Assembly (NCBI RefSeq): GCF_000235505.1
Contig: NZ_JH379028.1
Coordinates: 504,849 to 568,848, forward strand
Source: Hungatella hathewayi WAL-18680
Lineage (GTDB): Bacteria > Bacillota > Clostridia > Lachnospirales > Lachnospiraceae
DNA: 64,000 bases
Direction: 5' to 3'
How positions within the stretch are numbered: the first letter of the stretch is position 1; each line of letters begins with the position of its first letter. Position numbers and translations under genes: made by a program. The notes beneath the pieces were generated by a model that was not told the DNA's origin, did not search any database, and saw only the letters and a program-made list of their open reading frames with translations. Positions 2,378 through 8,140 of the stretch are shown piece by piece.

Positions 2378-2962
2378 CTATGTAGACTGGACGTGGCTTT
2401 TTTCTTCCTGCCAGCGCTTGTCGGTCTCTTCGTCCAGCTGTCGTCTCATCTGCTGGAGAAACGGGTCGTCCTTAAAATAGGCAGCGCCGTATTCCAGATT
2501 GAAATCATAGTCAAAGCCCGGGGGATTCTTCCCCTGGTTGTGCTGGATGATGGTCTCCGCCTTGTCAAGTGCTTTCACCAGGTGGGCCTCCGGCGAGGAA
2601 TTGTCATTGTACTCCTGCCACAGCGCCATCATCGCATCCCGCTGCCCTTCCGGTAGCAGCCCAAACACCTGCCGCACCGCGTCAAGCTCCATCTGATACT
2701 TCTCACCCGCATCCGGCAGTGATGCCGCCGAAATATCTCCGTCATATATCTCACCCATATCATGAATCAGGCACATCATCAAAACCTTCCGCCCATCCAA
2801 TCCCGGATACTCCGTCAAAACCACCCCCGCCAGCAAAGCCAGCCTCCAGCTATGCTCCGCCGTACTCTCCCCCCGCCCGCTGGAACTCCAGGCGGTGCGG
2901 AGAATAGACTTCAACTTCTCCGCCTCTTGGATGAAGGAGATGTAACTAGCAATATTCTCCAT
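2378..2962 (-). CDS. HD-domain hydrolase, YfbR/HDDC2-like
   Basis: This 194-residue protein is a stand-alone HD phosphohydrolase. The metal ligands are visible as H37 in STAEHSWR, the HD pair in CLIHDMGE at about residues 67-74, and a distal Asp near 130 in KALDKAE. The family includes 5'-deoxynucleotidases such as YfbR, which dephosphorylate deoxynucleoside monophosphates in the cytoplasm. The length matches that family. The precise substrate is inferred only from family similarity. It is probably transcribed alone: 110 bases separate it from the SH3 gene and about 100 from the regulator gene upstream. Confidence 0.85.
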   Translation of the reverse strand: MENIASYISFIQEAEKLKSILRTAWSSSGRGESTAEHSWRLALLAGVVLTEYPGLDGRKVLMMCLIHDMGEIYDGDISAASLPDAGEKYQMELDAVRQVFGLLPEGQRDAMMALWQEYNDNSSPEAHLVKALDKAETIIQHNQGKNPPGFDYDFNLEYGAAYFKDDPFLQQMRRQLDEETDKRWQEEKSHVQST

Positions 2963-4776: not shown

Positions 4777-5703
4777 TTATATCCCAAGATATTTTAATGA
4801 CAAATCATGTAATTCTGCTGCCAGCTTCTCATTTCCAATCGCCCTGGCAATCGGCAGATACCATTCCACGGTTTCCCTGGCTTTTTTCTCCCACGCCTCC
4901 CGGCTCATGGCTTCCAGCGTCCTCATGTTGTGCAGGCGGCCGGCCAGTTTCACAAGCACGGCCTCCCACTCCGTCATATCCACCTGCCCTGGCGCAAACA
5001 ACTTTACCGCCTCTAAAATCTTCACAATCCGTGGAGAAAATTCCCGTTCCAGCTCCCCCGGGGTAATCTCCGTTTTCACCAGCACCTCACTCAACAGCCC
5101 GGACACCACCGTGTCCTCATCTCCCTCCATCTCCGTCAGCAGAATGGCCACATTGATGGGGTGCGTCACATACTCAACCCCCGAATACCGTTTCTGCCCC
5201 TCATGGGCCCGGCAGGCGAACTCATACGCCTTCTCTATCCGCCCTCTCTCATAATCCAGTCCCTGCTCCCCGATGGAAGCCCACAGCCTGTCGTACAGTT
5301 CCTCCTTCGATTCATGGCTCCCAGTCTCTTCCAAAAATACATGACTCATGGCATTCCCTCCTTGAATTTCCGTCATCTGCATACGGAATCCTCTCAACAG
5401 GGCGGGTGGAAAACCGAATTCCCCAGTAAATGCTTTCGTGAACCCGCTGTGGGACTGATACCCCCAGTCCAATGCCGCGTCCAGCACCTTCCTGCCGCCA
5501 AGAATATCCTCCGACGCCCGAATCAGCCGCCGTTTTCTCACATATTCCATCACCGGCACTCCCGCTTCCTCCCGAAACATTCGGGAAAAATGAAATACGG
5601 AATACCCGGCGTGGCCCGCTATCTCCTCCACCGTCAATTCCTCCGCCAAATGCCTGTCGATGTAGAGCATGCTCTCCAGCACAACCGATTCCCTTTCCAT
5701 CAT
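4777..5703 (-). CDS. AraC regulator fused to degenerate SpoT-type HD domain
   Basis: The 308-residue protein has two parts. Residues about 5-110 are an AraC-family double helix-turn-helix (LTVEEIAGHAGYSVFHFSRM, then DAALDWGYQSHSGFTKAF). Residues about 145-308 follow the HD hydrolase domain of RelA/SpoT proteins: HEGQKRYSG at 167, a VTHP motif at 179-182, and KLAGRLHNMRTL at 252-263. Two active-site elements of SpoT are lost. The HDxxED motif reads SEVLVK (205-210) and the Asp of KLADRLHNMR is Gly255. The domain is therefore probably not a (p)ppGpp hydrolase but might still bind a nucleotide. ATG at 5703 was preferred to an upstream GTG. It is followed by a convergent terminator. Confidence 0.8.
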   Translation of the reverse strand: MMERESVVLESMLYIDRHLAEELTVEEIAGHAGYSVFHFSRMFREEAGVPVMEYVRKRRLIRASEDILGGRKVLDAALDWGYQSHSGFTKAFTGEFGFPPALLRGFRMQMTEIQGGNAMSHVFLEETGSHESKEELYDRLWASIGEQGLDYERGRIEKAYEFACRAHEGQKRYSGVEYVTHPINVAILLTEMEGDEDTVVSGLLSEVLVKTEITPGELEREFSPRIVKILEAVKLFAPGQVDMTEWEAVLVKLAGRLHNMRTLEAMSREAWEKKARETVEWYLPIARAIGNEKLAAELHDLSLKYLGI

Positions 5704-5784: not shown

Positions 5785-7746
5785 CTATTTTAATGCTTCC
5801 TCCACTGGAACCTCCAGCCCCGCCTGATATCCCTTGCCAAGCTGGTGTCTCGCCTTCCGGTTCTCCACGGTGTCAAAAATGATGGAGAAATCATAGTCCT
5901 CCGGGTACAGTTCACTGGCGGCCACCTTCAGTTTCAACCGTTTGTGGCTGATAAGCTTCTTCTCCTTCTGAATCTGCACCAGCACATCCCCGTTCCGGTC
6001 CGCCGGTTTCACCACGATGCCAATCACCTGCTCCGGCGACACCGTCACGCTGTCGCCCCTGGTAAATGTTTCCCCGTGGACTGCCTCCCGCTTCACCGCA
6101 ACCTGCTTCTCTATATGAGGGGTCTTCTGCTTCCAGGCATTCTTTCGCCCCTTTCCGGCATCCCCGGTATCCACAGCATTTCCGGTATCCAGTTCCAATT
6201 CCCGAATCAGCCCGTCCGCCTGCTCCCGGTAGGCTTCCCTGGCCGCCATCAGCAGCACCTCGTCCGGCACGCCCAGCCGTTTGGCGATGTACAGGGCACA
6301 GCTGTCCCCCGACTTTCCTATCTCCAGCCGGTACTGAGGCCTTAAACTCTCCCTATCAAAGGCCATTCTGGCATTAACAATCTCCGAATGTCGCTCCCCG
6401 TACTCCTTCACCTCCGGGTAGTGGGTGGTCACCAGAAAAAGACAGCCGCTCTTACGGAGTTCCTCCAGAACCGCAATGGCGATTCCCATTCCCTCCGCCG
6501 GGTCCGTGCCGGAACCCAGTTCGTCCAGCAGCACCAGACTCTCCTCGTTGACCGTCCCAAGAATCTCATTGACCTGGCGGATATGGGCCGAAAATGTGGA
6601 CAGGTTGTCGGAGATATTCTGCCCGTCCCCGATGTCGCACAGCACCTGGCTGTTCATGGCGATATCCGCCTTCTCGCAGGGCACGTGGAGACCGGAGCAG
6701 GCCATCAGACTCAACAAGCCCACCGTCTTCATGGCCACCGTCTTGCCCCCGGTGTTTGGCCCGGTGATAACAATTCCCCGGATGCCGCGGCCAATCTCAA
6801 AGTCCAGCGGCACACATTCCTCCTCCCGGAGCATGGGATGTCTGGCCTGTTTCATCCGGATATACCGCTCCGTGTTCAGCTTCGGCTCTATGGCTCCCAT
6901 TCTGGCGCTGAGTTTGGCCTTTGCAAAGATAAAGTCCAGCAGAACCACCACCCGGATGTCTTCCAGAATCTCCGCCTCATGCTCCGCAATCCTATCCATC
7001 AGCGTGTAGAGGATTCTCCGCTCCTCCGTGTCCTCCTCAATCCGGCAAAGCTCCAGGTTCTCCCGCAGCTTCGCCACCGCCTGAGGCTCGATAAACAGGG
7101 TGGAGCCGGTGGAGGATTTGTCCACCAGCATTCCCGGTACCTTGGATTTGTACTCCTTTTTCACCGGAATGCAGACTCTCCCGCTGCGGTTCACCACGAA
7201 GGAGTCCGCCACATAGGCCTTGCCGGCCCGCAGCGCGCTCTCCGCCTTCTCCTTGATTTTGCCCTCCAGCGTCTGAATCTCCCGCCGGATATCCCGCAGT
7301 CCGTTGGAGGCGTAATCGTCGATTCTGCCGCCACGGACCGAGCGGGCAATCTCCTCCTGAAGCTCCCGGACCTCCGCCAGATTATCCCCGTAAAAGGCAA
7401 GACCAATCTCACTATCCTTCCCCTTCTCCAGATACACCTGCATCCGCCGCACGGCCACCAGGAAAAATCCAATCTGCTCCATATGCTCCGGCAGTAAAAG
7501 TTCTCCCTTCACCGCCTTTTCCACATACTCCTCCACGTGCTCCATGGCCGGAAATGGAGGCGCCCCCAGCGCGTCCAGCAGCTGCCTGGCCTGGGTGGTG
7601 TCCCTCATGTGTTTCCTCAGCTTCGCCTCCGACAAAAATGGCGCCAGTTCCCCCGCCATCTCCCGCCCCTTCGGCGTCACCGCATATTCCCTCAATTCCT
7701 CAACAATGTTACCATATCCTAATAATTCAAATGTTGTTCGATTCAA
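5785..7746 (-). CDS. MutS2-like ATPase lacking the Smr domain
   Basis: At 653 residues it matches MutS2 through the core and clamp domains and the ABC-type ATPase: Walker A GPNTGGKTVAMKT near residue 330, then LLDELGSGTDPAEG (Walker B) near 410 and the STFSAH signature between them. MutS2 acts on branched DNA or collided ribosomes rather than in classic mismatch repair. Usual MutS2 proteins have about 780 residues and end in an Smr nuclease domain. Here the protein stops after the KOW-like stretch (FTRGDSVTV...), so Smr is absent. The best start is TTG at 7746, with an AGAGGA ribosome binding site eight bases upstream and homology to MutS2 N-termini. Confidence 0.85.
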   Translation of the reverse strand: MNRTTFELLGYGNIVEELREYAVTPKGREMAGELAPFLSEAKLRKHMRDTTQARQLLDALGAPPFPAMEHVEEYVEKAVKGELLLPEHMEQIGFFLVAVRRMQVYLEKGKDSEIGLAFYGDNLAEVRELQEEIARSVRGGRIDDYASNGLRDIRREIQTLEGKIKEKAESALRAGKAYVADSFVVNRSGRVCIPVKKEYKSKVPGMLVDKSSTGSTLFIEPQAVAKLRENLELCRIEEDTEERRILYTLMDRIAEHEAEILEDIRVVVLLDFIFAKAKLSARMGAIEPKLNTERYIRMKQARHPMLREEECVPLDFEIGRGIRGIVITGPNTGGKTVAMKTVGLLSLMACSGLHVPCEKADIAMNSQVLCDIGDGQNISDNLSTFSAHIRQVNEILGTVNEESLVLLDELGSGTDPAEGMGIAIAVLEELRKSGCLFLVTTHYPEVKEYGERHSEIVNARMAFDRESLRPQYRLEIGKSGDSCALYIAKRLGVPDEVLLMAAREAYREQADGLIRELELDTGNAVDTGDAGKGRKNAWKQKTPHIEKQVAVKREAVHGETFTRGDSVTVSPEQVIGIVVKPADRNGDVLVQIQKEKKLISHKRLKLKVAASELYPEDYDFSIIFDTVENRKARHQLGKGYQAGLEVPVEEALK

Positions 7747-8140
7747 TGTTTCTTCCTCTTTCCTATCTGTCAAATTTTGTCAACCTGCTATGCTCCGTCG
7801 ACTTCTCTATCGCTCTTTGCCAATCTACACATAAAAAAGAGAATAAAAAAACCTATGAGCATCCACAATAACATGCCACATAGGTCCTACTCCGGGAATA
7901 TGAGAAAGAGATTTTCTGTGCTGTGCAATTCTATCATGGATTTATGGCATGCCAAAAACAGCCTGAAACACCAGACGCTTTCCGCATACGACTCATAAAT
8001 TTATTTACTCTCCATCATAGAAACACTTAACAAAAAATTCTCCCCTTTCTGTTTTATACTAATCCATAGTATACACAGCCAGCGGCCGCCTGTCAACCGA
8101 AATCTCTCCGATTCCGCTCCGGCGGCCTGCTGTCTGCATG
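7747..8140. other. Non-coding interval
   Basis: This roughly 390-base gap between the MutS2-like gene and the BlaR1-like gene holds the MutS2 promoter region and a 7-bp inverted repeat (ACCTATG...CATAGGT near 7852-7888). Short frames in it have no recognisable product or ribosome binding site. I see no RNA gene or mobile element. Confidence 0.5.

Follow-up and report, generated by a model that had tools for sequence, protein, structure and literature searches.

An AraC-type transcription factor joined to a degenerate Rel/SpoT hydrolase domain: a candidate non-catalytic sensor of (p)ppGpp or a similar nucleotide

What does a transcription factor do with the domain of an alarmone hydrolase? This question is raised by a gene located in a window of 64,000 nucleotides from Hungatella hathewayi WAL-18680, which a preliminary description had read as an AraC regulator joined to a SpoT-type HD domain (Table 1). 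Pfam, phmmer and fold comparison agree on this architecture. The N-terminal half of the encoded protein matched HTH_18 (5e-17; 62 bits against a cut-off of 33.6) and HTH_AraC (1e-10), the C-terminal half HD_4 (PF13328, 5e-21; 75.6 bits against a cut-off of 27.2), in each case above the Pfam cut-off. Among solved structures, phmmer found the closest relatives of the second half in N-terminal regions of Rel (6s2t, E 2e-29). The AlphaFold model (mean pLDDT 85.7, pTM 0.77) was compared with known folds: residues 3–112 matched the AraC DNA-binding domain 3oio (Z 16.0, 1.9 Å, 109 aligned), and the second half matched Rel and SpoT with Z of 20–24, with residues 128–308 superimposing on SpoT 7qpr_A (Z 24.5, 2.4 Å, 180 aligned) and residues 135–308 on Rel with bound AMP and ppGpp (6s2u; Z 23.2, 1.7 Å, 172 aligned). 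Sequence and fold both assign the C-terminal half to the Rel/SpoT HD domains. An alternative GTG start codon two codons upstream of the ATG would extend the protein to 310 residues.

Table 1. Features of the fusion gene and its product, in window positions.
Feature	Position	Strand	Evidence	Details
AraC-HD fusion gene	4777..5703	(-)	ORF, Pfam, structure-sequence search, AlphaFold model, fold comparison	308 aa + stop; ATG at 5703, end of stop codon at 4777
AraC/XylS-type DNA-binding domain	5383..5703	(-)	HTH_18 at residues 29-103; fold match 3-112	about residues 1-107
Internal Shine-Dalgarno AAGGAGG in linker	5357..5363	(-)		7 nt ahead of internal ATG
Internal in-frame start codon ATG	5347..5349	(-)	invariant in 18 aligned rows	Met119
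Predicted HD-only isoform	4777..5349	(-)	inferred from conserved internal ribosome-binding site	190 aa + stop
SpoT/Rel-type pseudo-hydrolase domain	4780..5310	(-)	HD_4, fold, tree	about residues 132-308
SEVLVK where HDxxED is expected	5074..5091	(-)		residues 205-210
KLAGRLHNMRT	4918..4950	(-)		residues 252-262; RLHNMRT retained, Gly for metal-ligand Asp

The protein departs from each of the established classes that share one of its halves. It ends at residue 308, directly after the HD domain, and showed no Pfam match to the synthetase, TGS or later domains of a long RSH protein. With SEVLVK and KLAG it lacks the intact HDxxED and the metal-site Asp of a (p)ppGpp hydrolase. As in the Rob/SoxS/MarA branch, the AraC DNA-binding domain is N-terminal, and the NCBIfam matches to this branch fall below their cut-offs. 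Rob carries an additional C-terminal effector domain; unlike Rob, the fusion has HD_4 at its C-terminus instead of a GyrI-like domain, for which no match was obtained up to E 1.

Homologues of the fusion were collected by whole protein or profile, which gave 39 members including the window's own (38 others), all from one bacterial family. Three are incomplete (L016 with a stop, L027 at a contig end, L028 out of frame), and all counts refer to the readable members. Residues are numbered as in A. baumannii SpoT, checked against the printed alignment of chain 7qpr. In SpoT, E82 and D83 are each required (PMC9974481). This pair was incomplete or absent in all 37 readable fusions, D83 being present in none and E82 in six (ungapped count), while each residue was found in 88 of 91 Rel and small-hydrolase domains used for comparison. 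These 91 rows had partly been gathered with patterns containing RLHNMRT and YxTH, and their conservation at these motifs is inflated for that reason. Contact residues for the nucleotide were retained in the fusions: the guanine-stacking R45 in 39/39, Y51, and with it the presumed metal ligand H54, in 38/38, R144, which contacts the 3'-pyrophosphate, and N147 each in 37/37, and T150 in 36/36. The window protein contains HEGQ, HP, SEVLVK and KLAGRLHNMRTL just as the preliminary description had stated, and homologues with an intact HDxxED, which it had named as evidence that would count against it, did not occur among the 37 readable members. Its central claim, that a transcription factor here carries an alarmone-hydrolase domain which has degenerated, is strongly supported.

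The fusions have thus lost the residues that cut and have retained much of the nucleotide grip. Judged by sequence, they differ in this respect from the pseudo-HD domain of E. coli K-12 RelA, which shares the Rel/SpoT HD fold and the loss of catalytic residues, reads FPLADA and KLAERIAHLREV at the corresponding motifs and lacks both N147 and T150, two residues that are retained in the fusions. The RelA pseudo-HD domain also sits in a long RSH protein with synthetase and ribosome-binding domains. It is inactive in hydrolysis and acts as a regulatory switch (PMC8012599), a precedent for reading the HD half of the fusion as a protein-interaction module that has lost nucleotide binding and, for example, binds Rel or dimerises; a free HD isoform, as predicted below, would fit such pairing. 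We nevertheless consider this reading quite unlikely, as an interaction module needs none of R45, Y51, R144, N147 and T150, which are kept across homologues with about 38–51% identity to the window protein, and as the E. coli domain did not retain N147 and T150.

How widely the fusion occurs was assessed in genome samples of increasing breadth. At least 21 of 397 genomes sampled at family level carry it, the own genome included (at least 20 further fusions), and in one genus it was found in 18 of 25 genomes, 14 of these being new members. The order-level sample yielded nine fusions in 392 genomes, the own included, all within the same family and four of them additional members (E <= 1e-60). 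Across the phylum, only the window's own genome out of 398 carried a fusion at E <= 1e-60, a threshold at which a strongly divergent fusion would escape the phylum and order searches. None of the 12 plasmid records or the 15 phage records matching the query reached 80% query coverage, and among the matches listed for viral contigs (26 loci) all start at query residue 135 or later. One scan of genome contigs yielded no relative; in another, ordinary Rel proteins dominated the best 80 of 598 matches. One short frame among the latter, L078 (335 aa), proved on checking to be a Rel with a break.

A tree was calculated from 19 representatives of the 39 fusions together with 33 sequences taken from the comparison set of 91. 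The 19 HD domains formed one clade (support 100/100), which grouped with two Rel proteins of their own family (support 96/91), and the named Rel proteins near the clade come from Lachnospiraceae. A single clade beside the family's own Rel suggests that the fusion probably arose once, out of a local rel gene. The genome of the window also carries a long Rel (L004/L006), and it encodes a protein resembling small alarmone hydrolases (L007, contig C1:457965-458198, 190-aa frame) with HDxxED. In the tree, L007 lies far from the fusion HD domains.

The preliminary description had asked whether loss of the metal site is conserved among such fusions, and here the survey gave a different picture. Of the 37 readable fusions, 20 keep the complete set of presumed metal ligands (H54, H78, D79 and D143), and what is constantly lost is the intact E82–D83 pair. 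The other 17, among them the window protein, lack at least one ligand; they mostly have C-D at H78–D79 and E at D143, and the window protein has S-E and G at these positions, which removes three of the four. Lys occupies position 83 in 17/17 metal-lost members versus 2/20 metal-intact ones, and this Lys83 may take over part of the role of the metal. We take D66 of human MESH1 to be the same position as SpoT 83. MESH1 D66K is an inactive mutant that was crystallised with NADPH (PMC9894426). With H54, H78, D79 and D143 in place, the 20 metal-intact members might hydrolyse something else, so that at least this subgroup would still be an enzyme with an altered substrate or mechanism; we regard this as improbable, given that SpoT needs E82 and D83 each (PMC9974481) and that the window protein is without most of its presumed metal ligands.

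Some changes in the pocket bear on the identity of the ligand. Between H78 and K140 the fusions lack about 20 residues relative to Rel (median length 44–46 versus 64), and this removes most of a loop whose residues 110–117 share in phosphate coordination in SpoT (PMC9974481). K140 is replaced by Ala in 19 members (19 of the 20 metal-intact ones), and K158 is mostly non-basic, with Thr in 19/20 metal-intact members and Lys in 5/19 others. Judging from these replacements, the shortened loop and the changes at K140 and K158 could weaken binding of (p)ppGpp. RLHNMRT may be retained for folding alone. Both the loop and the two variable lysines would suit a pocket that senses another ligand instead of (p)ppGpp, e.g. 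NADPH, PAPS, an adenosine alarmone or GTP/GDP. The MESH1 branch of the fold accepts NADPH (PMC9894426) and has yielded a structure with PAPS (according to the title of 9chy), and an orphan bacterial small alarmone hydrolase takes alarmones and NADPH whatever the base (PMC9765508). The fusions, however, descend according to the tree from Rel and not from small alarmone hydrolases, and they retain R45 and T150, so a different ligand seems to us unlikely.

Purifying selection on the HD half equals that on the HTH half: the median dN/dS was 0.114 (45 pairs) and 0.110 (44 pairs), respectively, as obtained from 51 pairs picked by identity, which are non-independent and largely from one genus. As the value for the HD half is about 0.11, the pseudo-hydrolase is evidently a working part, and a reading of the gene as a pseudogene was rejected on the basis of dN/dS. 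The linker showed a dN/dS of 0.44 together with a lower synonymous distance (median dS 0.29 versus 0.51 and 0.68 elsewhere).

Within the linker we found an internal Shine-Dalgarno sequence followed by an in-frame start codon. This internal translation start is new here and was absent from the preliminary description, and we found no report of a similar one in the open-access literature. It lies where the model is disordered (residues 114–122, pLDDT < 50). GGAGG or AGGAG precedes an in-frame linker start in 19 of 21 representatives (one per 70% identity), compared with 8/273 other internal in-frame starts of the same genes and 102/4005 internal starts of 292 other genes. Computed pairing energies of -8 kcal/mol or better were obtained for 36/38 linker sites versus 5.6% of 430 other starts, and the linker site ranks first within its own gene in 32/38. 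The first Gly codon at the motif is GGA in 20/21 representatives, and the motif is preserved although the residues it encodes differ (GGN, GGS, KGD, KGE, EGE, GRE, AGE). Synonymous shuffling with the protein held fixed supports the motif only moderately once the encoded residues are taken as given: p < 0.05 was reached singly in 6/38 genes, and Fisher's combination over the 21 representatives gave p = 0.0009. Exceptions are L149 without a start codon and L150 and L152 with TTG, and some spacings between Shine-Dalgarno and start are long (11 nt). L149, L150 and L152, which have no good internal ATG, are the three metal-intact members without an arginine cluster nearby.

Linker Shine-Dalgarno and start together predict a separate, sensor-only protein of 190 residues. 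Such a product would resemble small alarmone hydrolases and MESH1 in size and fold; unlike these active, HDxxED-bearing enzymes, the fusion HD domain lacks HDxxED and derives from long Rel. If the HD half were instead a decaying relic of gene fusion, the internal Shine-Dalgarno would be the remnant of an old rel start. Single members are indeed broken in the HD half (L016 by an in-frame TAA, L028 by loss of frame after about residue 172), both in draft assemblies. Constraint across the whole HD half, the reduced synonymous distance in the linker and a motif that outlasts changes in its encoded residues make such decay extremely unlikely.

Gene neighbourhood was rejected as a guide to function for the family as a whole, as in 21 loci no family besides the fusion itself occurred in more than five. 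Directly upstream of the fusion gene on the same strand, the window encodes a 662-aa protein with MutS domain V (5785-7773, minus strand), which is absent beside the fusion gene at other loci. At a distance of 1.8 kb from the fusion gene the window encodes another HD protein (2378-2962, minus strand), which is of the HD_3/YfbR-like type and unrelated. For 19 members of the metal-intact clade (17 from one genus, two from another) flanking sequences were available, and in 16 of them the fusion gene adjoins or lies near argC-argJ-argB-argD, often with argG (loci L142, L163-L165, L169, L171-L179, L137 and L140), mostly on the strand of the cluster and at its argD end; the three without it are L167, L168 and L170. 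Proximity to arginine biosynthesis would suit a starvation signal, yet it may be inherited synteny.

Our preferred reading, which we consider plausible though evenly balanced, is that the fusion is a transcription factor using a Rel-derived hydrolase domain as a non-catalytic sensor of (p)ppGpp or a similar nucleotide. The retained nucleotide-contact residues and the purifying selection lend indirect support to such direct sensing. In the scheme that we infer, with its ligand, allosteric step, targets, short isoform and the role of that isoform, the AraC half would bind DNA, as is typical of its family. The HD half, keeping Arg45, Tyr51, Arg144, Asn147 and Thr150, would keep (p)ppGpp, or a nucleotide close to it, bound and uncut, because the grip residues are kept and the water-activating E82–D83 pair is lost. 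Nucleotide in the pseudo-hydrolase pocket would then alter DNA binding or activation by the AraC half, in the manner of a one-component regulator. In the subgroup of the window protein, where the metal site is gone, Lys83 may substitute for the metal. The internal ribosome-binding site on the same mRNA would yield a free 190-residue sensor domain, which might associate with the full-length regulator or buffer it. An extended version of this proposal, in which the (p)ppGpp sensor comes in two putative designs (one retaining the metal but lacking E-D, the other lacking the metal and having Lys for D83) and each gene gives rise to a full regulator and a free sensor domain tuning it, is put forward tentatively, leaning slightly to the side of doubt.

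In Firmicutes, (p)ppGpp is thought to control transcription mostly indirectly, via GTP, and PurR of Bacillus subtilis was apparently the first DNA-binding transcription factor found to be directly bound and regulated by ppGpp (PMC9304144). Like PurR, the fusion combines an N-terminal DNA-binding domain with an enzyme-type fold at the C-terminus. In PurR these are a winged HTH and a pocket of the phosphoribosyltransferase fold, whereas the fusion joins an AraC HTH to the fold of the alarmone's own hydrolase, and its nucleotide binding is predicted. In the open-access literature we found no report of a transcription factor that uses an RSH-type HD domain as its effector domain, or of an AraC-HD fusion, and neither 'helix-turn-helix' nor 'fusion' occurs in the text of an RSH survey (PMC3153485). 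We regard the fusion as a candidate one-component regulator of the AraC type, whose putative sensor is new and repurposed. For a regulator made from the alarmone's own hydrolase the ligand is obvious and quick to test, and if the proposal is true, a compact, genetically encoded alarmone sensor would be on offer. The family would then represent a clear case of an enzyme turned sensor, its catalytic step deleted in two ways and its grip retained, and would provide, after PurR, a second and evolutionarily independent route for direct control of transcription by (p)ppGpp.
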